This document shows positions 19,862-31,883 of a stretch of 64,000 bases of DNA, piece after piece (positions within the stretch are counted from its first letter, which is position 1; each line of letters opens with the position of its first letter). Location: NCBI GenBank assembly GCA_947184155.2, contig CAMXCT020001024.1:573584-637583 (forward strand). The letters run 5' to 3'. A model generated the notes under the pieces. It made no database searches. It was not told the DNA's origin and was given only the letters and a program-made list of their open reading frames with translations. The DNA comes from Cladocopium goreaui. Taxonomy: Eukaryota > Sar > Dinophyceae > Suessiales > Symbiodiniaceae. A program made the translations under genes and the position numbers.

Positions 19862-20864
19862 CAACGCCAATCCATCTATCTATCTACCAATCCATCTATC
19901 TCTCTCTCATCTGTCTATCTAACTATCTATCTATCCATCTGTCTATCTATCTATCTATCCATCTATCCATCTATCCATCTATCCATCTATCCATCTATCC
20001 ATCTATCCATCTATCTATTCTATCTATTCTATCTATTCTATCTATTCTATCTATTCTATCTATTCTATCTATTCTATCTACTCTTTCTATTCTATCTATC
20101 TATCTATCTATCTATCCATCTATCTGTCTATCGAACTGTGTGTATCTAGCTATCTACCTATCTACAAATCTAAATATCTACATCTCTACATATTTACCTA
20201 TCTATGTATCTATCTATCTGTCGATCTATCTATCTATCTATCTGTCTATCTATCTATCTATCTAGCTGCCTATCCATCCATCTGTCTGTCTATCTATCCA
20301 TCTGTCTATCTATGTATCCATCGATCCATCTATTCTATCCATCTATCCATCTATCCATCTAGTCTATCTATCCATTCTTTCTATGCTATTCTATTCCTAT
20401 TCTATTCTATTCTATTCTATTGTATTCTATTCTATTCTATTCTATTCTATCTATCTATCTATCTAACCATCTATCTATCTATCTATCTATCCATCTATCC
20501 ATCTATCCATCTATCCATCTATCCATCTATCCATCTATCCATCTGTCCATCTGTCCATCTGTCCATCTGTCCATCTGTCCATCTGTCCATCTGTCCATCT
20601 GTCCATCTGTCCATCTGTCCATCTGTCCATCTGTCCATCTAGTCTATCTATCTATTCCATCTATCCATTCTATCTATCCATTCTATCTATCCATTCTATC
20701 TATTCTATCTATCTATCTATCTATCTATCTATTTATCTATCTTTCTATCTATCTATCTAGCTGTCTATCTGTCTATCCAACTATCTGTCTGTCTTTCTGC
20801 CTGTCTGTCTATCTATCTATCTATCCATCTATCTATCGATCGATCGATCGATCTCTCTCTCTCC

Positions 20865-20934
<70 letters not shown>

Positions 20935-20979
20935 GTCTGTCCCTCTGTCTGTCAATCTTTCTATTTAACTATCTGTTTG

Positions 20980-21021
<42 letters not shown>

Positions 21022-21247
21022 CATTTATCTATCTAACTATCTATCTATCTCATCTGTCTATCTAACTGTGCATCTATCCATCTACCTATCTATCTCTCTT
21101 TCTTCCTATCTATCTATCTTTCTGTCTATCTATCGACCTATCTGTCTGTCTATCTATCCATCTGTCTATCTATGTATCCATCTATCCATCTATCCATCTA
21201 TTCTATCTATCTATCGACCTATCTATCTATCTATCTATCTATCAATC

Positions 21248-21292
<45 letters not shown>

Positions 21293-21525
21293 GTTGTCTA
21301 TCCATCTATCTATCTGTCTATCTGTCTATCCATCTGTCTATCTATGTATCCATCTATCCATCTGTCTATCTATCTATCTATCGATCTATCTACCTATCTA
21401 ACGACCTATCTATCTATCTATCTTTCTTTCTATCTATCTATCTATCCATCGATCTATCTATCTATCTATCTATCTATCTAGCTGTCTGTCTATCTTTCTA
21501 TCTATCTATCTATCTATCTGTGTTT
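19862..21525 (+). repeat. 1.66-kb TATC-type microsatellite
   Basis: Mainly (TATC)n with ordered variant blocks: CATCTATC (about 19940-20010), TATTC pentamers (20010-20095 and 20395-20450), CATCTGTC (20530-20640) and CT dinucleotides (20850-20935). The Ile/Tyr/Leu/Ser open frames reflect the repeat only. Confidence 0.9.
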
Positions 21526-21599
21526 TGTACATTTTGACTTCGAAATGTGCTTCGCGCCACAACGGCGTGCAATTTTTCATCTCTCATCTGGCCAGATGG

Positions 21600-21900
21600 C
21601 GGTAAATTAAAGTCGTGGACCCAGAGGCGGTAAAACCGTAAAACGGTAAATTCGTAAAGTTGTGGAGCCAGAGGCGGTAAAACCGTAAAACGGTAAATTC
21701 GTAAAGTCGCAGCATTTTACCGATTTACCGATTTACCGGTAAAACCGTAAAACGGTAAATTCGTAAAGTTGTGGAGCCAGAGGCGGTAAAACCGTAAAAC
21801 GGTAAATTCGTAAAGTTGTAGCATTTTACCGATTTACCGAATTTACCGAATTTACCTCGTCCGGACGTATCGAAATTTACCATTTTACCGATTTACCCAA
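21600..21900 (+). repeat. GGTAAA satellite, right block
   Basis: Three copies of a unit with GAGGCGGTAAAACCGTAAAA, then GGTAAATTCGTAAAGT, followed by TTTACCG runs on the same strand, giving large inverted segments. Confidence 0.75.
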
Positions 21901-21904
21901 TTTA

Positions 21905-22545
21905 CCATGGCCCGAAGAGCGGCGAAATTTACCAATTTACCGATTTGCCAAATTTACCATGGCCCGAAGAGCGGCGAAATTTACCAATTTACCGATTTAC
22001 CAAATTTACCATGGCCCGAAGAGCGGCGAAATTTACCAATTTACCGATTTACCAAATTTACCATGGCCCGAAGAGCGGCGAAATTTACCAATTTACCGAT
22101 TTGCCAAATTTACCATTGCCCGGAGAGCGGCGAAATTTACCAATTTACCGATTTACCAAATTTACCATTGTCCGGAGAGCGGCGAAATTTACCAATTTAC
22201 CGATTTACCAAATTTACCATTGCCCGGAGAGCGGCGAAAATTTACCAATTTACCGATTTGCCAAATTTACCATTGCCCGGAGAGCGGCGAAATTTACCAA
22301 TTTACCGATTTACCAAATTTACCATTGTCCGGAGAGCGGCGAAATTTACCAATTTACCGATTTGCCAAATTTACCATTGCCCGGAGAGCGGCGAAATTTA
22401 CCAATTTACCGATTTACCAAATTTACCATTGTCCGGAGAGCGGCGAAATTTACCAATTTACCGATTTACCAAATTTACCATTGCCCGGAGAGCGACGAAA
22501 ATTTACCAATTTACCGATTTACCAAATTTACCACTGCCCGGAGAG
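21905..22545 (+). repeat. 52-bp satellite, about 12 units
   Basis: The unit is GCCCGAAGAGCGGCGAAA followed by four TTTACC words. The first four units carry CCCGAAGAG; later ones alternate TTGCCCGGAGAG and TTGTCCGGAGAG. Two units (7 and 12) have one extra A. Because 52 is not a multiple of 3, all three plus frames stay open for over 200 codons; these are not proteins. Confidence 0.9.
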
Positions 22546-22784
22546 CGTTCTCTCCTTAGCATCATGCCTTACACAGTGACGGCTTAGAAAGCGCTACACA
22601 TGATACTGCAGCCCTGTGGCATAATATGTGGTTCGACTACCTGTAAACCAGACACAAACGATGACACAGGCCAGTGGATGTAGACAATCCCTGCTTGCAA
22701 CTCCCATCCAGCAATTCGCTATCGATCAAGAAGGCTTATTTTGACAGGAAAGCTGGCCTGGAAACTTTGATTCTCAGAATGGGA

Positions 22785-23474: not shown

Positions 23475-23494
23475 ATGATAAATAAAAAAATATG

Positions 23495-23687
23495 TGTGAA
23501 AACCAATCTGCATTCCAGTCATGTCCTGACAATGCTTTACATGTTGGCATGGAACCTCATGTTGCATAGCAGTTTTTCTCAGCATGTGCACAAATCGAGA
23601 AGTGTAACAAATGCCAAGACTCGCCATTATCCAATGGCTCAAGCGAGCGCAAAACAAGTGTGCTGCCAGCTGTGGGTCATTTCCACA
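23495..23687 (+). repeat. 5' LTR of the intact Copia element
   Basis: A 193-bp direct repeat begins TGTGAAAACC and ends TTTCCACA, with TG...CA ends and a short imperfect inverted terminal repeat. It is identical by eye to 31676-31868. The preceding TATG also follows the 3' LTR, consistent with a 4-5 bp target site duplication. Confidence 0.92.
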
Positions 23688-23688
23688 C

Positions 23689-23706
23689 TGGTAGCTGGAG
23701 CATTCG
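23689..23706 (+). promoter_or_regulatory. Putative primer binding site
   Basis: TGGTAGCTGGAGC begins one base after the 5' LTR. Its TGG start fits pairing with the CCA end of a tRNA. Which tRNA is unknown; it differs from the usual initiator-Met site. Confidence 0.45.
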
Positions 23707-23773
23707 TTGTTCCAGGGCAGCCTTTGCCCAACCGACTTCGGTCCTTTTTCGTTGCTTCGGCGGTAGTTCAGCC

Positions 23774-26700
23774 ATGAGCTCACTGCTGGAGACCTTTAGG
23801 TATGCGAACTTCATCAAGGAAGATGAAAACATGAACTCCACTGAAGGTAAGAATGGTGTCCCACGCTTCAGCGGAGAGGCCTCGAGATTCTCTGAATATG
23901 CCTGGCGTGTCCGTGCCAAGATCGCCAAAGAGGAGATGATCGATGAGATGGAGAAGAAGAAGTTAGGACCTCTGGGGTTGAGGCTCGTTGAAGGGTTGTC
24001 AGCTGCTGCGTTGAGAGTTGCCCAGCAGATGGAAACCAAAGAACTTTCATCCCCCACGGGTCCAGAAAACTTACTAGCGAAGTTGCAGTCTGCCTTGAAA
24101 CCCAAGAGAACCCAGGAAGCTAGGGAGTTGTACCAAGCTGGAGCCAAGGAAGGTGGCATTCTGTCACGCCAGTCAGGTGAAGCCATGTCCACGTACATAG
24201 TCAGGAGACGTTCATGGTACTTGGCAATGACAGGTTTGGACGACCAACTCAAGCTTCCCGAGCTCATCTTGGCCGAGCAAATTTTGCTGAACTCAGGTAT
24301 CAGCGAAAACCATCAACTTCTGGTGAGATCAACCTTGGCTGGTGTGATGACGGTTGATGCTGTCTGTGATGAACTTGTTGCACAACATGGACATGTTCAC
24401 GAACGTGAGCGGCGTCATGGTCATGGTGGCAAAGGCAAGCACCGTGGCTTCTTTGATCGAAACCGCTCAGGTTACTCTGGTTTCATGGCCGAGGAATCCC
24501 AGAATGTTGCATGGGAGGCTGATGATGTCTTTGAGACACCGAATGCGTACCAGGCTGAGTATGACAGCAGCGAGTATGAGGTTTCTGCATATGACATGAC
24601 AGAGACGCCTGACGATGCAGAGTTTGATGATGGTGAGCTGTTTGCTCATCTGGCCTCTCAAGGGCTTGACGTGGACGATGAAGAAGCTCTTGAGTATGCG
24701 GCCGAGATCATCCAAACTGAGCGAGAAGCTTTCTTTGCTCGCCATCGGGCCTTCAAGAAGGGCTTCAAAGGTTCCAAGGGCAAGGGCAGTGGCAAGTCTT
24801 CGACACCTCCATCGTCGAGACATTTTGATGTCCAAGGCCAGCTCTCTCTTTCAGAGCGACAGCAACGTGTGCAGTCTTTGAAGTCGCGCACAACATGCCG
24901 AAAGTGTGGACAAGTTGGACATTGGAGTGGTGATTTCATTTGTCCCAAGAACAACAAGGGTGGCAAGTCTGGTCCTGGCTCATCGGCTTCCTCTTCAGCA
25001 CCAACCAAGTCTTCTGCCAGTGCTGGACGTGGAGCCAAGGATGGGAAGCCAAAGACTGTTTACTTTGGTATCAAGTCTGATGATGGCTACAGCCGCAAGA
25101 GCTACATGGCCATGCGGTACAATGCAGTGCCGCCCCCATCATGCCTTTCTGATGGACAAGTTCCTCCAGAACAAGCCACCGGATCTTCTCCAGGTGAATG
25201 GTCCGTTGTTTCTGATGGACATCACATGACCCAGGATGAGTTGGACAACATCATGCTGGTTGAAGCTCTTGGTGTTCCTGAGATTAGAGACGATGAGCTG
25301 CAGTCTATGGTGGACTTTGTTGCGAGAAATGAGAGCGTAGCGACACCAGACGCTCGACTTCTGATGCTTGAAGCTTTGCAGCATCAACAGCAACATGGAC
25401 ATGTAGCACTTCAACTTTTGCCCAGAGCAGCTCTCCCGCCTTTGCCAGGACGAACGTCCTTGTCTCAGCCTCAGGATCAACCTGAACAAGTGGTTTCATC
25501 AGCACCATCTATGTCATCAGCAGCGAACCCACCAGATGGAGTTCCTGAAGCTCATGCTGGATGTGAACACAAGCGCACCACGTTTCGAGGATCCAATGCA
25601 TACTACACCTTCAAGAAGTGTTTGGACTGTGAAGCAGTTCTTCTTCGTGAACGCAAAGAGCTGCCTCCGAGGGCAACACCCAAGGCAGCGGCTGCAGCAA
25701 CAACCACAGCTGCACAGATGACTGCTGAACAAGAAGCTTGCCCACATCAGAGTGTGACATGGGCTGGAAGCAATGGCCATCGCTGGAAGCGAACTTGCAA
25801 GGACTGTGGACTCATCACCTCAGGTCCTGTGCTGCCAAACACACCTGGCTCTGTGCGATCCTCAGCTTCAGTTGGATCTGTCCCTGCATCAGCATATGAT
25901 GGACCTGATGTTCAAGTTCCGGTTCGAGTGCTCGACCACATCAAGAAGTTCTTCAGCTTTTCTGTGACGATGCGTGAACGACTTGGAGCACTTGGTGGAC
26001 ATGGAGAGACTATGTTAGCCAGTGAGCTGATCGACATGTTGAAGGTCAGCATCAACTTTGCAGTTGGCAAGGAACTTGAAGATCCCACTACGCCCAGAAC
26101 GACTTCCAGACCATCTTCACAGCCTGCATCTGCAGTACCTTCACCAATGCGACCACAGTCGTCTACGGGCCCATTGGCTATGGACTTAGATGCCATGGGA
26201 CAGCGACTGATTGACTTTGGCAAGTACAAGCACAACAGCTATCGTGATGCATGGGAAGACCAAGGGTATGTCACTTGGTGCATCAACAATGTCAAGGACA
26301 ATTCCTGTAGAGGCTTGAAGAACCTCGTCAGCTACTTCAAGGAGATGCGATCTCGACATCCTCCAGCCAAGGCATCTGCCTACATGGCACAACATGGACT
26401 TCAAGATGGTGAAGAAACTGACCTGATTGCAATTCTTGACACGGGTTGCAATGCTACCTGCCATGGTAGCCGATGGCTGGAGAGGTATTGCCAAACCACT
26501 GGCGCTGATGTTCCACCTCTACTACCAAACAATGGCCCCGGCATCAAGGGCATTGGTGGCGACCGCCTGGTTTTGGGCAAACGTGAACTTGAGATCAGCT
26601 TTGAACTCAGCAACGGAGACTTTGCTCGTGGCACCTTGACTTCGCTCGAGCTCAGTGACTCTGATGCGCCACTTCTTTTGGACATTGGAACTCAGCAGCA

Positions 26701-29700
26701 ATTGGGCTTCATCATTGACTGTGGCAACCACAATGTGCACAGCAAGACTCTTGGAAGTGATCTTCATTTGGTCTGCAGAGATGGACTTTTGGCAATTCGA
26801 CTTTTGCCTGGTTACCTTGGACTTACTGGTGACCACTCTGCAGCCGATCACTGTGGTGACAACTCTCCAAGCACCAACGGAGAAACTGAATGCCCAGCTT
26901 CTGATGGCGATGGACTTTCAACTCTCAGTCAGCAACTTGGCACACCTGCTGACGATGCCATCACTGATGATGAGTTCAACCTGGTCCCTGAGGCTCACAT
27001 CGCCTTATCTGATGAAAGTGGCCAGAAGCGAGTTTTCACCAAGGGCCAGCGCAAGCAGATTACCAAGGATCTGGCTGATGTCAAGATGAGTGACTCTCAT
27101 TTGTGGCAATCGCTGAGTGCTGAAAAGAAACCCAGAACTCTGCCCAAGGGATGTCGCACATTCATCCTTGAGATCTTTGCGGGTACGGCACTCCTCACCT
27201 TGATGGCTGTCGAAGCTGGATTTCCTGTCTCTCAACCCATCGACATTGCTTTTGATGGGACTGACCTTTGCAACATCAAACATCGGGAGATGATCGACAG
27301 CCAGATTGCCAGAGATGATCCCTATGCCATTTCTTTGTCGCCTGTTTGCACACCATGGTGCCCCTGGCAAGATCTGAATGCCAGCAAGTCTGAAGAGACT
27401 CACATGAAGATTGAAGCTGAACGGAAACGATGGTTTCCTGCTTTGAAATGGATGGCCAACTTGATTCGCCAACGGCTTGCAAAAGGTCGTCAAGTTTTCT
27501 TTGAGCAGCCTTGGCCTTCACACATGTGGTACACCTTGGTGCTTCAACGTCTTTTACAAGATGCTCCTGAAGATGCCTTGACTGGTGAACCACTTGAAGC
27601 CGTGAAGTGCGATCAATGTGAATTTGGCCTTTGTGATTGGGATACTGGAATACCCCACAAGAAATCCACCGGCGTCATGACAGCAAGCCGTGGAATCAAA
27701 GCCAACATGAATGTCCAGTGTTCCAGGACCCATGATCATGTTCAGCTTGCTGGAGGCCAACGCACTAGACGTGCTCAGCAGTGGCCTCGACCATTTTGTC
27801 AAGCAATCCTTGATGGACTTTGTGGTGACTTGGACTTGATCACCACCAAGGTTGCTTTCCCAGCTGAAGTTTTGGCAGAAGAGAATCCGCTGGGAGCTTT
27901 GGATCACATTTATGATGCGAAAGATGAAGTTCCTGAACATCTACCAGTTGGACGTTGTGATGAACTGGAGATCAAACAAGAAGAAGGTCGAGAACAAGAA
28001 GGACCTGGTCAAACGCAGCAAGACCAACTCCGCAAACGGGAGTGGCTCAAGCTTCCTCTTTCTCAAAGAGTTGCTGTTCGGCGACTACACCAGATGACAG
28101 GTCATGCAAGTGTGTCAGCCATGGCCAGAATGCTCAGGCTTGGCCGTGCAGATCCTGAAGTTCTGCATCGACTCAAACACTTTCGATGCGAAGCCTGTCA
28201 AGTTCGCCAACGACCAGAGCCACGTCCTGTTGTCAAACCACCCAGCCAGTATTCTTTCAACCATGAACTGGCAGCTGATACTTTCGAAGTTCGTGATGGA
28301 CTTGGCAACAAGTTTACAGTTTTGTCAGTGATTTGCATGGGAACTTTGTATCATGCAGCATGGATTGTGTCAGAAACTGGCGGTGTTCCCAGCAGCCTTC
28401 GATGTGCAGAAGCATTGCGTGATGGATGGTTTGGTATCTTTGGTCCTCCCAAATTCCTGACAGTTGACCGTGGTGTGGCCAACCGAGGACAAGTTGCCTA
28501 TTTGATGTCCTCTCAAGGAGTTTATATACGCTATGCTGGAACAGCTGCTGCACATCATATTGGACGTGCTGAACGTCATGGTGGTTTGCTCAAGGAAGTG
28601 ATTTCACATGCAGTTGCAGCACGCAACATTGTTGGCGCTCATGTCATGAAGATGTTGGTTGGAGAATCATGTTTTGTGAAGAACAACCGGGTCAACCACG
28701 CTGGATTTTCACCTTCTCAATGGGTTCTTGGAAGGATGCCTGTTGAAGTGACTTCAATGACTTCTGAAGAAGGTCAAGAAGCTTTGGGAGTTCAACAAGA
28801 AGTTCTGGATGGTACCAGTGCCTTTGCTCAACAGATGAGCATCAGACAGGCTGCGAAACAAGCCTTTGAGTATGCAGACAGCAGCCGTCGAGTGCGCACT
28901 GCACTCCTTCGACGGAGCACTCCACTTCGTGGTCCTTACCATCCAGGAGATCTCCTTTGCTTCAATCGGCGTGGGAAATGGTTCGGCCCAGCACGTATGG
29001 TTGGATGGGAAGGTCGTTCCAATTTATGGTTGGTTCATGGTGGGATTCCAATTGTCATTTCGCAAGAATGTGTTCGTCCTGCAACCAGCGGTGAAGTCAT
29101 CGCCAAACAGATGTTGGAGTTGCGACCCTCGCGCAAGAGAAAACGTCACCTTTTGGACGAAGATGCGGAGGATGTCCCATTTTCTGATGACTTGCTCACC
29201 AACCTGGAGCAAGATGATGATGACGACCACCAAGGATCCTACCTGGATATGGGTCGTGGCGGTGATCTTAGTTCAGTGGCCTCACCATCAGTTATTGACA
29301 CGCCCAATTTGGAGCCTGAAGCACCACCATCCAATTTTGATGTTCCACCAGGCCTGGACGGAGTTAACACTTTGCCTCCGGTTCCAGAGCATGATATGAT
29401 GATGTCCGACGTGGATGGAGTTAACACTTTGCCTCCACCCGTCGAGCCTGGTCAGGAAGGAGTTAACACTTTGCCTCCTCCTGCCATGGCTGATCAGGAT
29501 GGAGTTAACACTTTGCCTCCTCCTGCCATGGATGATAGCGATCAGGTGTTTGATGATTTTGATGAGCTTTTGGATGGTTTGCGTATGTCAAGAATGGATA
29601 CGGTCGAAGAGCCGGACCTTGAGCATCAACCTTCAGATGGACAACCAGCACAGCCATCAAATTTTCATCAACAACAACCTGCCGCTGATCCAGTGGATAC

Positions 29701-31750
29701 TCAGCTGAGCCAGGCGTTGCGCAGATCACCTGATCTGCTGGATGGACATTATCGTCCGTCTCGTGGACGTTCCAGATCTCCACACAGAGATGCTCCAATA
29801 CCACCAACATCTGCGACAGAAGATGATGTTTCACTCTCACGTATCACCCTTTTTGCCAAGCAGAATGACAAGCAGAAGCAGCAGTCTGAAACCTTGCTTG
29901 GATTCATGGCCCGGAGAACTCCCAAGCGCTATGTCAAGAAGAAGGCTGGTTCTCGTGAATTCAACTACAAGAAGGAGCCGGAAGACCTTCAAAAGCGCAT
30001 TGATGTGGCCAGAGAGAAGGAATGGGGAAATTGGATGAACTTCGATGCTTGCGAAGTTATTGAGCCTGAGTTGGCAGCAGCTTTCAAGTCAAAACACCCT
30101 GGAGTTCAAGTGGTGCCGACACGTTGGGTCGACATCAACAAAGCCCAAGAGGGAGAACCCGAGCAGCTGAAAAGCAGGCTGGTGGTGCGAGGTGACCTTG
30201 AACGATCTGCTCAACATGGAGAGGTCCGCACAGACTCTCCCACAGCATCTCATTTGATGCTCAGCCTGATCCTCACCTTTGCCAGCTGCTTTGAGCTTGT
30301 GTTGCATGCTGGAGATGTAACAGCAGCGTTTCTTCAAGGTCTTGGTTTAGCACGAGTTCTTGTCATGGCTCTTCCTGCAGATGGAATCCCTGGAGTCAAG
30401 CCAGGATCACTTTTGGTTGCGAGAAAGCCTGTGTATGGCACGAAGGATGCACCTAGAGGTTTTTGGCGTTCTCTCCATAAGACCATGCTGAAGTTTGCCT
30501 TTCGAAGTATTCCACATGAGAATGCTGCCTATGTCATGCTTAAGGACGATGGCAGTATCGATGGGCTGGTAATCAGCCACGTGGATGATTTGATTTGGTG
30601 TGGTGGCGAGAAGGCTCAGAAAGCCATGCAACAAGTTCAGCAGGAACTGAAGTTTGGGAAACTGGAAGACACATGTTTCAAGTTTTGTGGGCGCAGCATC
30701 ACCCAAGATGAAAAGGGCATCCATGTCACTTGCCCTCATGGACTTGAACGTACCAGACCCATTGCAGTTTCCACTGGCCGTAAGAAGAATCGTAGCAGTC
30801 CTGCTACTCCAGATGAACAGAGTCAATTGCGCAGTGTTCTTGGTTCTTTGAATTGGGTTGTTCGTGTTTGCAGACCTGACCTGGCCTATGACACCAACCG
30901 GCTTCAGACCAAAGTTCAGAAACCAACTGTGCAAGACCTTTTGGATTGCAACACTTTGTTGCGACGAGCTGTCCTCACCAAGGATCAGAAGCTCACCTAT
31001 GGATGGAAGATGTTTGATTTCAACAAGGCTCAGATTCTCAGCATCACCGATGCCAGCCATGCGAATGACCATGATGTTTCTCAGTCTGGAGAAGTGCTTG
31101 GATGCCGATCTCAATCCGGCCGTATCCTAGCGCTATGTGGCCCTGATTTCATGCAGAACAATGGTGGCCGAATTGCCCTCATTGAATGGCGTAGCTCAGT
31201 GATTCGCCGAGTTTGCAGGTCCACACTTCAAGCTGAATCGTTGTCTATGCTGGCGGGATATGAAGAATCAGAACATTTGCGATGTGTTTTGGATGGACTT
31301 TTGCATGACCATCCACCTTCATCTCCCGATTGGCAAGTGCGTGCCAAGGACAACATCAATGTGTTGAAACTGACCGATTGTCGCTCTCTCTCCGATCATT
31401 TGCTGCAGCGCGGACTTGGAGAAGTCAACGATAAGCGTTTGGCGATTGATTTGAGCGGAATGCGTCAGATGATTTGGCGCAAACATGGCCAATGTGTTGG
31501 TGATCCCCTATACGATGATGCGCCTCCTGAGAGTGGAACAACACAAGCAATTTGGATCAGCACGAAAACGATGCTATCCGACAGTCTCACCAAGCATATG
31601 GATACCCATGATCTAAGGGAGGTTATGGAAGGTGCAACATACAAAATTGAGGTTCATGCCAAAAAGAAAGACGGATGTGAAAACCAATCTGCATTCCAGT
31701 CATGTCCTGACAATGCTTTACATGTTGGCATGGAACCTCATGTTGCATAG
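23774..31750 (+). CDS. Copia gag-pol polyprotein with methyltransferase-like domain
   Basis: The first ATG in frame gives 2658 residues; the frame is open farther upstream into the 5' LTR without an ATG. Order by approximate residue: gag; zinc knuckle CRKCGQVGHWSGDFIC near 375 (CX2CX4HX6C, two residues longer than usual); two similar Cys/His modules near 595 and 655; an FGKYKxxxY...GYVTWC segment near 812-850; retropepsin DTG near 888; a Rossmann-like methyltransferase domain about 1130-1350; HHCC integrase head near 1437-1480; DDE core with D (AADTF), D (TVDRG), E (RAERHGG); four GVNTLPP repeats near 1863-1918; RT with SHVDD near 2270; RNase H with TDASHAND and CRSTLQAESL. The stop lies inside the 3' LTR, so the last 24 residues are LTR-encoded. 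The product would make and integrate its own cDNA. Confidence 0.93.
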   Translation: MSSLLETFRYANFIKEDENMNSTEGKNGVPRFSGEASRFSEYAWRVRAKIAKEEMIDEMEKKKLGPLGLRLVEGLSAAALRVAQQMETKELSSPTGPENLLAKLQSALKPKRTQEARELYQAGAKEGGILSRQSGEAMSTYIVRRRSWYLAMTGLDDQLKLPELILAEQILLNSGISENHQLLVRSTLAGVMTVDAVCDELVAQHGHVHERERRHGHGGKGKHRGFFDRNRSGYSGFMAEESQNVAWEADDVFETPNAYQAEYDSSEYEVSAYDMTETPDDAEFDDGELFAHLASQGLDVDDEEALEYAAEIIQTEREAFFARHRAFKKGFKGSKGKGSGKSSTPPSSRHFDVQGQLSLSERQQRVQSLKSRTTCRKCGQVGHWSGDFICPKNNKGGKSGPGSSASSSAPTKSSASAGRGAKDGKPKTVYFGIKSDDGYSRKSYMAMRYNAVPPPSCLSDGQVPPEQATGSSPGEWSVVSDGHHMTQDELDNIMLVEALGVPEIRDDELQSMVDFVARNESVATPDARLLMLEALQHQQQHGHVALQLLPRAALPPLPGRTSLSQPQDQPEQVVSSAPSMSSAANPPDGVPEAHAGCEHKRTTFRGSNAYYTFKKCLDCEAVLLRERKELPPRATPKAAAAATTTAAQMTAEQEACPHQSVTWAGSNGHRWKRTCKDCGLITSGPVLPNTPGSVRSSASVGSVPASAYDGPDVQVPVRVLDHIKKFFSFSVTMRERLGALGGHGETMLASELIDMLKVSINFAVGKELEDPTTPRTTSRPSSQPASAVPSPMRPQSSTGPLAMDLDAMGQRLIDFGKYKHNSYRDAWEDQGYVTWCINNVKDNSCRGLKNLVSYFKEMRSRHPPAKASAYMAQHGLQDGEETDLIAILDTGCNATCHGSRWLERYCQTTGADVPPLLPNNGPGIKGIGGDRLVLGKRELEISFELSNGDFARGTLTSLELSDSDAPLLLDIGTQQQLGFIIDCGNHNVHSKTLGSDLHLVCRDGLLAIRLLPGYLGLTGDHSAADHCGDNSPSTNGETECPASDGDGLSTLSQQLGTPADDAITDDEFNLVPEAHIALSDESGQKRVFTKGQRKQITKDLADVKMSDSHLWQSLSAEKKPRTLPKGCRTFILEIFAGTALLTLMAVEAGFPVSQPIDIAFDGTDLCNIKHREMIDSQIARDDPYAISLSPVCTPWCPWQDLNASKSEETHMKIEAERKRWFPALKWMANLIRQRLAKGRQVFFEQPWPSHMWYTLVLQRLLQDAPEDALTGEPLEAVKCDQCEFGLCDWDTGIPHKKSTGVMTASRGIKANMNVQCSRTHDHVQLAGGQRTRRAQQWPRPFCQAILDGLCGDLDLITTKVAFPAEVLAEENPLGALDHIYDAKDEVPEHLPVGRCDELEIKQEEGREQEGPGQTQQDQLRKREWLKLPLSQRVAVRRLHQMTGHASVSAMARMLRLGRADPEVLHRLKHFRCEACQVRQRPEPRPVVKPPSQYSFNHELAADTFEVRDGLGNKFTVLSVICMGTLYHAAWIVSETGGVPSSLRCAEALRDGWFGIFGPPKFLTVDRGVANRGQVAYLMSSQGVYIRYAGTAAAHHIGRAERHGGLLKEVISHAVAARNIVGAHVMKMLVGESCFVKNNRVNHAGFSPSQWVLGRMPVEVTSMTSEEGQEALGVQQEVLDGTSAFAQQMSIRQAAKQAFEYADSSRRVRTALLRRSTPLRGPYHPGDLLCFNRRGKWFGPARMVGWEGRSNLWLVHGGIPIVISQECVRPATSGEVIAKQMLELRPSRKRKRHLLDEDAEDVPFSDDLLTNLEQDDDDDHQGSYLDMGRGGDLSSVASPSVIDTPNLEPEAPPSNFDVPPGLDGVNTLPPVPEHDMMMSDVDGVNTLPPPVEPGQEGVNTLPPPAMADQDGVNTLPPPAMDDSDQVFDDFDELLDGLRMSRMDTVEEPDLEHQPSDGQPAQPSNFHQQQPAADPVDTQLSQALRRSPDLLDGHYRPSRGRSRSPHRDAPIPPTSATEDDVSLSRITLFAKQNDKQKQQSETLLGFMARRTPKRYVKKKAGSREFNYKKEPEDLQKRIDVAREKEWGNWMNFDACEVIEPELAAAFKSKHPGVQVVPTRWVDINKAQEGEPEQLKSRLVVRGDLERSAQHGEVRTDSPTASHLMLSLILTFASCFELVLHAGDVTAAFLQGLGLARVLVMALPADGIPGVKPGSLLVARKPVYGTKDAPRGFWRSLHKTMLKFAFRSIPHENAAYVMLKDDGSIDGLVISHVDDLIWCGGEKAQKAMQQVQQELKFGKLEDTCFKFCGRSITQDEKGIHVTCPHGLERTRPIAVSTGRKKNRSSPATPDEQSQLRSVLGSLNWVVRVCRPDLAYDTNRLQTKVQKPTVQDLLDCNTLLRRAVLTKDQKLTYGWKMFDFNKAQILSITDASHANDHDVSQSGEVLGCRSQSGRILALCGPDFMQNNGGRIALIEWRSSVIRRVCRSTLQAESLSMLAGYEESEHLRCVLDGLLHDHPPSSPDWQVRAKDNINVLKLTDCRSLSDHLLQRGLGEVNDKRLAIDLSGMRQMIWRKHGQCVGDPLYDDAPPESGTTQAIWISTKTMLSDSLTKHMDTHDLREVMEGATYKIEVHAKKKDGCENQSAFQSCPDNALHVGMEPHVA
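29359..29526 (+). repeat. Four in-frame GVNTLPP repeats in gag-pol
   Basis: The words GGAGTTAACACTTTGCCTCC recur four times with acidic spacers of 9-19 residues, in the linker between integrase and RT. They look like a recent coding minisatellite or linear binding motifs. Confidence 0.8.
31658..31675 (+). promoter_or_regulatory. Putative polypurine tract
   Basis: AAAAAGAAAGACGGA directly precedes the 3' LTR and is purine-rich apart from one C, as expected for the plus-strand primer. It is also coding. Confidence 0.55.
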
Positions 31751-31868
31751 CAGTTTTTCTCAGCATGTGCACAAATCGAGAAGTGTAACAAATGCCAAGA
31801 CTCGCCATTATCCAATGGCTCAAGCGAGCGCAAAACAAGTGTGCTGCCAGCTGTGGGTCATTTCCACA
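31676..31868 (+). repeat. 3' LTR of the intact Copia element
   Basis: This is the identical partner of 23495-23687 and is followed by TATG. It contains the gag-pol stop codon at 31748-31750. Confidence 0.92.
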
Positions 31869-31883
31869 TATGTATATAACTTT

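Follow-up and report, generated by a model that had tools for sequence, protein, structure and literature searches.

A conserved Cys-Glu pair in a predicted C5-methyltransferase-fold domain of dinoflagellate Copia retrotransposons

The stretch of Cladocopium goreaui DNA analyzed here (the window; 64,000 nucleotides, positions 573,584 to 637,583 of contig CAMXCT020001024.1, assembly GCA_947184155.2) contains a complete-looking Copia retrotransposon at positions 23495–31868. Between the LDTG protease motif upstream and the HQMTGH integrase motif downstream, its Gag-Pol polyprotein carries a domain that, by predicted models, has the fold of the C5-cytosine methyltransferases (C5 MTases) and that keeps the Cys and Glu of their active site. 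We regard this domain as probably descended, with strong divergence, from a C5-cytosine methyltransferase that was acquired by the ancestor of numerous Copia elements of dinoflagellates and has stayed functional as an enzyme within Pol. C5-MTase fold and descent are very probable.

We examined the conservation of the putative active site in two sets of relatives. The own-genome set comprised 77 rows (78 loci, L009–L086, minus L078, in which no domain was located); these include many near copies, were all found by similarity, and are not independent events. The diverse set comprised 44 rows, drawn from L009–L038 (12 of these 30 loci), L039–L056 (all 18), and the 69 proteins (14 of them). The first-pass annotation, made from the letters of the window, had placed SPVCTPWC at the PCQ position (motif IV) and FEQP at the ENV position (motif VI), and both placements were borne out: Cys and Glu occurred at these motifs in 77/77 own-genome rows and 44/44 diverse rows, so that the motif IV Cys and motif VI Glu of a canonical C5 DNA methyltransferase (DNMT) are both present. 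Few residues are as well conserved as these two, even where copies share as little as 25–30% identity with the query. The Pro two residues after the Glu, C163, and K178 were each found in 44/44 diverse rows, and position 180 was T or S in all 44. In the protein searches, the window's branch had the Cys in 16 of the 18 rows reaching it and the Glu in 19/19.

The motif IV forms in relatives were SPVCGPWS, SPTCGPWS, WPCGPWS, HPCGPWG, PPCGPFS, and LPCTKWS. Because of these forms, the Cys of ‘PVC’ is equated with the Cys of the classical PCQ. The catalytic motifs had been described as altered, which is not the case for the nucleophile position: it is intact, and mainly its neighbors vary, the preceding Pro being present only in some lineages and the following Gln being mostly G, T, or S. 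In motif VI, the Glu is followed by N, Q, or H (S once in the set shown) and then Pro, instead of N-V. The Cys pair of PVCTPWC pointed out in the first-pass annotation stood only in its first member, whereas the second was Cys in 1/77 own-genome rows and 5/44 diverse rows.

The proposal that motif I and the Cys would persist among active relatives held for the Cys, many of the copies lying in long frames, but motif I was kept in the window's branch, the other branch having SPPR in its place. Of 75 own-genome rows, 42 had Gly at the glycine position of motif I and 29 had Pro. The window's branch has FAGxA; the motif I of Dnmt3 is FxGxA. D38 and D45 are conserved in both branches, the latter as D or N. 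D38 lies 22 residues after F16, as E40 does after F18 in M.HhaI, and by the M.HhaI numbering, D38 and D45 occupy the places that would hold S-adenosylmethionine (SAM). A C...H.H cluster is also conserved, with C...C...H..C in the SPPR proteins shown, which suggests a metal site.

We predicted the structures of the window domain and of the P0025 domain from alignments that had only 3 rows in common. In the structure searches with the window model, C5 MTases made up 50/50 of the listed top entries, and with the P0025 model they made up 49/50 by title. Motifs I, IV, and VI were in place, and the structural resemblance to methyltransferases anticipated by the first-pass annotation was thus recovered twice. 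In the window model, motif I (LEIFAGTA; LEIFAG begins at 27167 on the plus strand) lies in and after strand 1, SPVCTPW after strand 4, and FEQP after strand 5. Compared with M.HhaI, DNMT1, DNMT3A, and Dnmt2 from the PDB, the predicted fold is alike over nearly the whole domain, as are the Cys after strand 4 and the Glu after strand 5. The domain differs from these enzymes in being 8–15% identical to them in the aligned part, in having no QxRxR, and in lacking a target-recognition domain of the usual size. A search for motifs I, IV, and VI in order found them at one place in the polyprotein and in none of 20000 residue shuffles, with a pattern that was written after the sequence was known and is no independent test; the fold searches and the conservation are the better tests.

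The domain is widespread in the same genome. The window domain had at least 114 matches and the P0025 domain at least 118, in lists that overlap in at least one locus; some elements give two matches. Many of these matches lie in open frames of 1500–3100 codons. Four polyproteins have the domain at 44–57% identity. Per 60-residue block, identity to these four was 35–61% in the domain, 11–30% in the linker just before it, 40–66% in the protease, and mostly higher in the reverse transcriptase (RT). In the window's branch, the domain lies between protease and integrase: of 30 loci, 17 had LDTG or IDTG upstream and 20 had the zinc motif of the integrase downstream, the rest being truncated, broken, or outside the pattern used. 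In the SPPR branch, the domain lies between integrase and RT: 24/30 loci had an RT motif downstream and 21/30 had, upstream, a YER motif belonging to the C-terminal part of the integrase, and 4 of 6 proteins scanned had SH3_retrovirus before the domain (P0061 and P0067) or RVT_2 after it (P0026 and P0035). A tree of 45 rows united the 16 rows with the domain between integrase and RT in one group (support 99/96, one change), adjoining SPPR-like rows placed before the integrase (L047, L050, and L055). This tree, in which some position labels were assigned by relationship and the placement of four long branches is uncertain, fits a single relocation of the domain within pol.

The pairwise ratio of nonsynonymous to synonymous substitution rates (dN/dS) for the domain had a median of 0.077 (28 of 351 pairs with usable dS; highest value, 0.36). 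The medians for protease and integrase were 0.106 (19 pairs) and 0.072 (21 pairs), respectively, the pairs sharing rows in all cases. These codon comparisons show purifying selection on the domain. Three Copia copies were also fetched from RVT_2 matches. L089 has the domain, and L087 and L088, which extend from gag via protease and integrase to the RT start, gave no significant domain match; because two of the three lack it, the domain is a lineage trait rather than a Copia universal. A partial comparison by eye of the best 150 RVT_2 matches with the domain matches listed revealed no coincidence. The motif I of L089 is more classical (VGAG), and its protease region, by eye, has no obvious DTG; this copy is perhaps nearer to the ancestral state.

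A number of observations weigh against the reading of the domain as a working C5 MTase. The Cys position is occupied by Trp in P0013 and Val in P0016, and in the other branch of the protein searches the Cys was present in 47/48 rows and the Glu in 38/41. Motif I of that branch is [FY]SPPR in 49 of 50 proteins and SPAR in one; its own-genome rows have SPPR in 26 and SQPR in 2 of the 28 aligned. Since SPPR replaces the motif I glycine in the whole branch, the usual SAM pocket cannot be general. Motif VIII, QxRxR, is absent, and K-x-T/S stands in its place. The TM-scores in the PDB list were low, at 0.34–0.48 among the top six matches to the window model and 0.31 for EhMeth with the P0025 model. 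Only one Foldseek match of P0025 had E ≤0.001, and the entries ranked below it were other methyltransferases and unrelated folds. PF00145 gave no match at E ≤10 in the window, 5 close members, or 6 distant members, and 50 rows from the other branch likewise had none at E ≤1. The hhalign comparison with genuine DNMTs gave Prob 5.7–7.2 and P 0.005–0.007 (score 26.9 at P 0.007), and a wide-family profile scored DNMT frames at E 0.011 or worse, below the HMMER inclusion threshold. The base composition gave no clear sign of self-methylation (CpG observed/expected 0.56 in the element and 0.62 in both flanks), which is uninformative.

The domain gave nothing significant against Pfam, NCBIfam, PHROGs, and PDB sequences; at E ≤10, neither Pfam nor NCBIfam had a model that matched its residues, and no PDB sequence matched them. 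The Pfam/NCBIfam scan of the 5 close members returned one row, which was judged to be chance, as were weak matches to single-stranded-DNA-binding proteins (E 0.3 or higher) and to PHROG 7060 (E 0.062). The hhalign comparison with shallow DNMT profiles was not significant. In the comparison with genuine DNMTs, the aligned pieces cover the PCQ and ENV regions, and the score was equalled by 1 of 200 column shuffles, whereas DNMT–DNMT controls had Prob 99–100. Scans of viral and prokaryotic contigs by tblastn found no relative. Compact methylases of phages and algal viruses are candidate donors of the domain. Taken on its own, the sequence connects the domain only weakly with DNMTs. Because a Pfam match and motif VIII were both sought and neither was found, the domain is not classed as a canonical DNMT. 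Within the assembly, PF00145 matched best on a 7.38-Mb contig, whose size may mean a bacterial contaminant.

The short reach of the profiles, which fell below clear significance, and the low Foldseek TM-scores would be expected if the motifs resembled those of MTases by chance or if the domain were an unrelated Rossmann-like fold. We rejected this explanation as highly improbable because both models, built from nearly separate alignments, retrieved C5 MTases. The domain might instead be a noncatalytic module, in which an MTase fold and a metal-binding cluster help Pol, integrase, or the pre-integration complex to grip RNA or DNA. Such a scaffold would account for the altered motif VIII, the added conserved Cys and His residues, and the two alternative places in pol, each adjoining integrase. 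We nevertheless consider it unlikely, given that the Cys and the Glu stay among the most conserved residues in even distant copies; pseudo-enzymes usually lose the nucleophile.

A further explanation keeps the C5-MTase fold and the nucleophile and gives up SAM-dependent methylation: the Cys-Glu pair would catalyze another reaction at C5/C6 of a pyrimidine (uracil, for example, or the 5-hydroxymethyluracil (5hmU) present in dinoflagellate DNA) or would trap a flipped base. The near or full invariance of C73, E125, K178, C163, C197, and H203 suits this explanation, as does the rebuilding of motif VIII and, in the SPPR branch, of motif I. According to the available passages of a study on Breviolum (PMC11071213), most repeats there are enriched in 5hmU and Copia elements are among the least accessible. 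On the other hand, the acidic residues D38 and D45, at positions taken to contact SAM, are conserved in both branches, the window's branch retains FxG, and L089 has VGAG. We judge this explanation quite improbable. Still bolder, and with a small chance of being right, is the view that dinoflagellate Copia elements carry enzymes of the C5-MTase fold that make up a large, previously unrecognized superfamily, whose members keep the Cys-Glu site but have rebuilt cofactor and target-base pockets, and that the product is a new pyrimidine modification (for example, of uracil or 5hmU in the element's own cDNA) and not ordinary cytosine methylation.

The preferred reading therefore remains that of a C5-MTase-fold domain that probably works like a DNMT. 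Many relatives in the same genome keep the active-site residues, and for this reason the role of the domain is probably chemical and not just structural; catalytic activity has a somewhat better than even chance. The domain is best read as an enzyme whose substrate is the RNA or cDNA of the element itself, because the Cys and the Glu are invariant, the dN/dS value is approximately 0.08, and the domain has a fixed place beside integrase. That this action is methylation of the element's own nucleic acid is suggested more tentatively, at slightly under an even chance. After processing of Gag-Pol, the domain would work inside the particle or the pre-integration complex, where it would flip a pyrimidine out of this RNA or cDNA. 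C73 would attack C6 of the flipped pyrimidine, and a methyl group from SAM, held at motif I, D38, and D45, would be passed to the base. The new copy might then reach the nucleus with marks already resembling those of the host genome. Changed chemistry in place of default cytosine methylation is possible because the cofactor and target motifs are both rebuilt.

The features of the element and the domain are summarized in Table 1. The element was identified as a Ty1/Copia long terminal repeat (LTR) retrotransposon by a Gag CCHC motif, a DTG protease, an integrase before the RT, RVT_2, TG...CA LTRs, and a 4–5 bp target duplication; its architecture is that of Copia and not of DIRS or LINE. The integrase was recognized via its zinc motif and alignment to relatives, without a Pfam match above the cut-off. 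The peptides quoted in the first-pass annotation all lie in frame within one open frame of 2726 codons, and its description of an intact Copia gag-pol agrees with the identical LTRs, the TATG flanks, the Met-to-TAG frame, and the RVT_2, protease, and integrase matches. The Met start resembles those of P0002 and P0004. At its other end, gag-pol runs into the 3′ LTR (overlap 31676–31750), so that its stop codon lies there, and the open frame extends back into the 5′ LTR.

Table 1. Positions of the element and domain features in the window
Feature	Position	Strand	Details and evidence
Target-site duplication TATG, left copy	23491..23494	.	Sequence; 5-bp reading TATGT possible
5′ LTR	23495..23687	+	193 bp, TGTGAAAA...TTTCCACA; identity to 3′ LTR 100%
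gag-pol open frame	23774..31750	+	2658 codons + stop; Met 23774, TAG 31748–31750
CCHC zinc knuckle (gag)	24893..24928	+	PF00098 E 0.0043, under curated cut-off
Aspartic protease motif LDTG	26435..26446	+	Sequence; L009 residue 315
C5-methyltransferase-fold domain (predicted)	27131..27859	+	Model residues 1–243; AlphaFold2 (AF2) predicted local distance difference test (pLDDT) 89, Foldseek, VIA-align, conservation
Motif I F16-A17-G18	27176..27184	+	Sequence, alignment
D38, motif II acidic residue place	27242..27244	+	D in 74/75 own-genome rows
C73, motif IV nucleophile position	27347..27349	+	Cys in 77/77 own-genome rows
E125, motif VI Glu	27503..27505	+	Glu in 77/77 own-genome rows
Possible metal site C163, C197, H201, H203	27617..27739	+	C163 77/77, C197 76/76, H203 74/74, H201 45/57 own-genome rows
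K178-x-T180, motif VIII QxRxR place	27662..27670	+	K 75/76, T or S 75/76 own-genome rows
Integrase N-terminal zinc motif start HQMTGH	28088..28105	+	Motif pattern
Reverse transcriptase (RVT_2)	30101..30730	+	PF07727 E 1.3e-17
3′ LTR	31676..31868	+	193 bp; identity to 5′ LTR 100%
Target-site duplication TATG, right copy	31869..31872	.	Sequence

The LTR matched only these two places in the 1.17-Gb assembly, and the next-best match to the domain in the genome, among the matches listed, was 56% identical. The element is thus a lone insertion, and its LTRs mark it as recent; no close sister was found in the assembly, and its nearest known relative is P0005 (83% identical). Its single-copy status with identical LTRs may mean that it arrived recently from outside or that the assembly has a gap. 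A short ExoX-like_C motif lies directly upstream of the protease (26210–26293; PF20600 E 0.0028, under the cut-off), and motifs of this type were seen by eye in P0002, P0003, and P0004. The gag region contains two C-x-H...C-x2-C zinc-ribbon-like units (25562–25807), also seen by eye in P0002 and P0004. A short way upstream of the element, a 1.65-kb ATCT tetranucleotide array is followed by a 52-bp unit repeated approximately 14 times (19870–22547). No match to the spliced-leader sequence was found inside the window with up to 3 mismatches allowed. The whole assembly contains 172 exact occurrences of the dinoflagellate spliced leader (81 forward and 91 reverse) and none of the reversed control, in keeping with a host that is very probably a dinoflagellate.

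The capture of cytosine methyltransferases by dinoflagellate retrotransposons, to which the first-pass annotation had referred, is documented in the available passages of de Mendoza et al. (2018, PMC5890265), which used Pfam models such as PF00145 for the search. There, DNMT domains are described from LINE and DIRS elements in Symbiodinium and from a Klebsormidium Gypsy element, de novo CG methylation is reported for some retroelement DNMTs, and LTR Copia is stated to be the most abundant retrotransposon superfamily of Symbiodinium, without any DNMT domain. SymbioDIRS-Dnmt3 and SymbioLINE-Dnmt resemble the present case in being C5-MTase domains in many copies of dinoflagellate retrotransposons (theirs with Ka/Ks <0.2). 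They differ in belonging to LINE and DIRS elements and being recognizable by PF00145, whereas the present domain belongs to LTR Copia, is unrecognized by PF00145, and has motif VIII replaced and Cys and His residues added. KnitGypsy-Dnmt3 of Klebsormidium nitens is likewise a DNMT domain in an LTR-type Pol under purifying selection, but the element is Gypsy, the host a charophyte, and the domain Dnmt3-related (PMC5890265). The Dam-like N6A methyltransferases of DIRS elements, which are also retroelement methyltransferases, are of another class and structurally unrelated to cytosine DNMTs (PMC5890265). A 2025 article in Mol Biol Evol (PMC12344493) names ‘LTR Copia and DIRS’ as holding embedded DNMT3 members; this is a passing remark on the DNMT3 clade that cites the 2018 paper (Gypsy, DIRS, and LINE), and the passage does not describe the present domain. 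In the portions of the literature retrieved by our search, no description of this domain in Copia was found, the nearest being the sentence in PMC5890265 and the remark in PMC12344493.

If many Copia copies encode a selected C5-MTase-fold enzyme, the capture of such domains by retroelements would be far broader than thought. The odd active site, in which the Cys and the Glu are kept and the SAM and target motifs are rebuilt, would make new chemistry testable.
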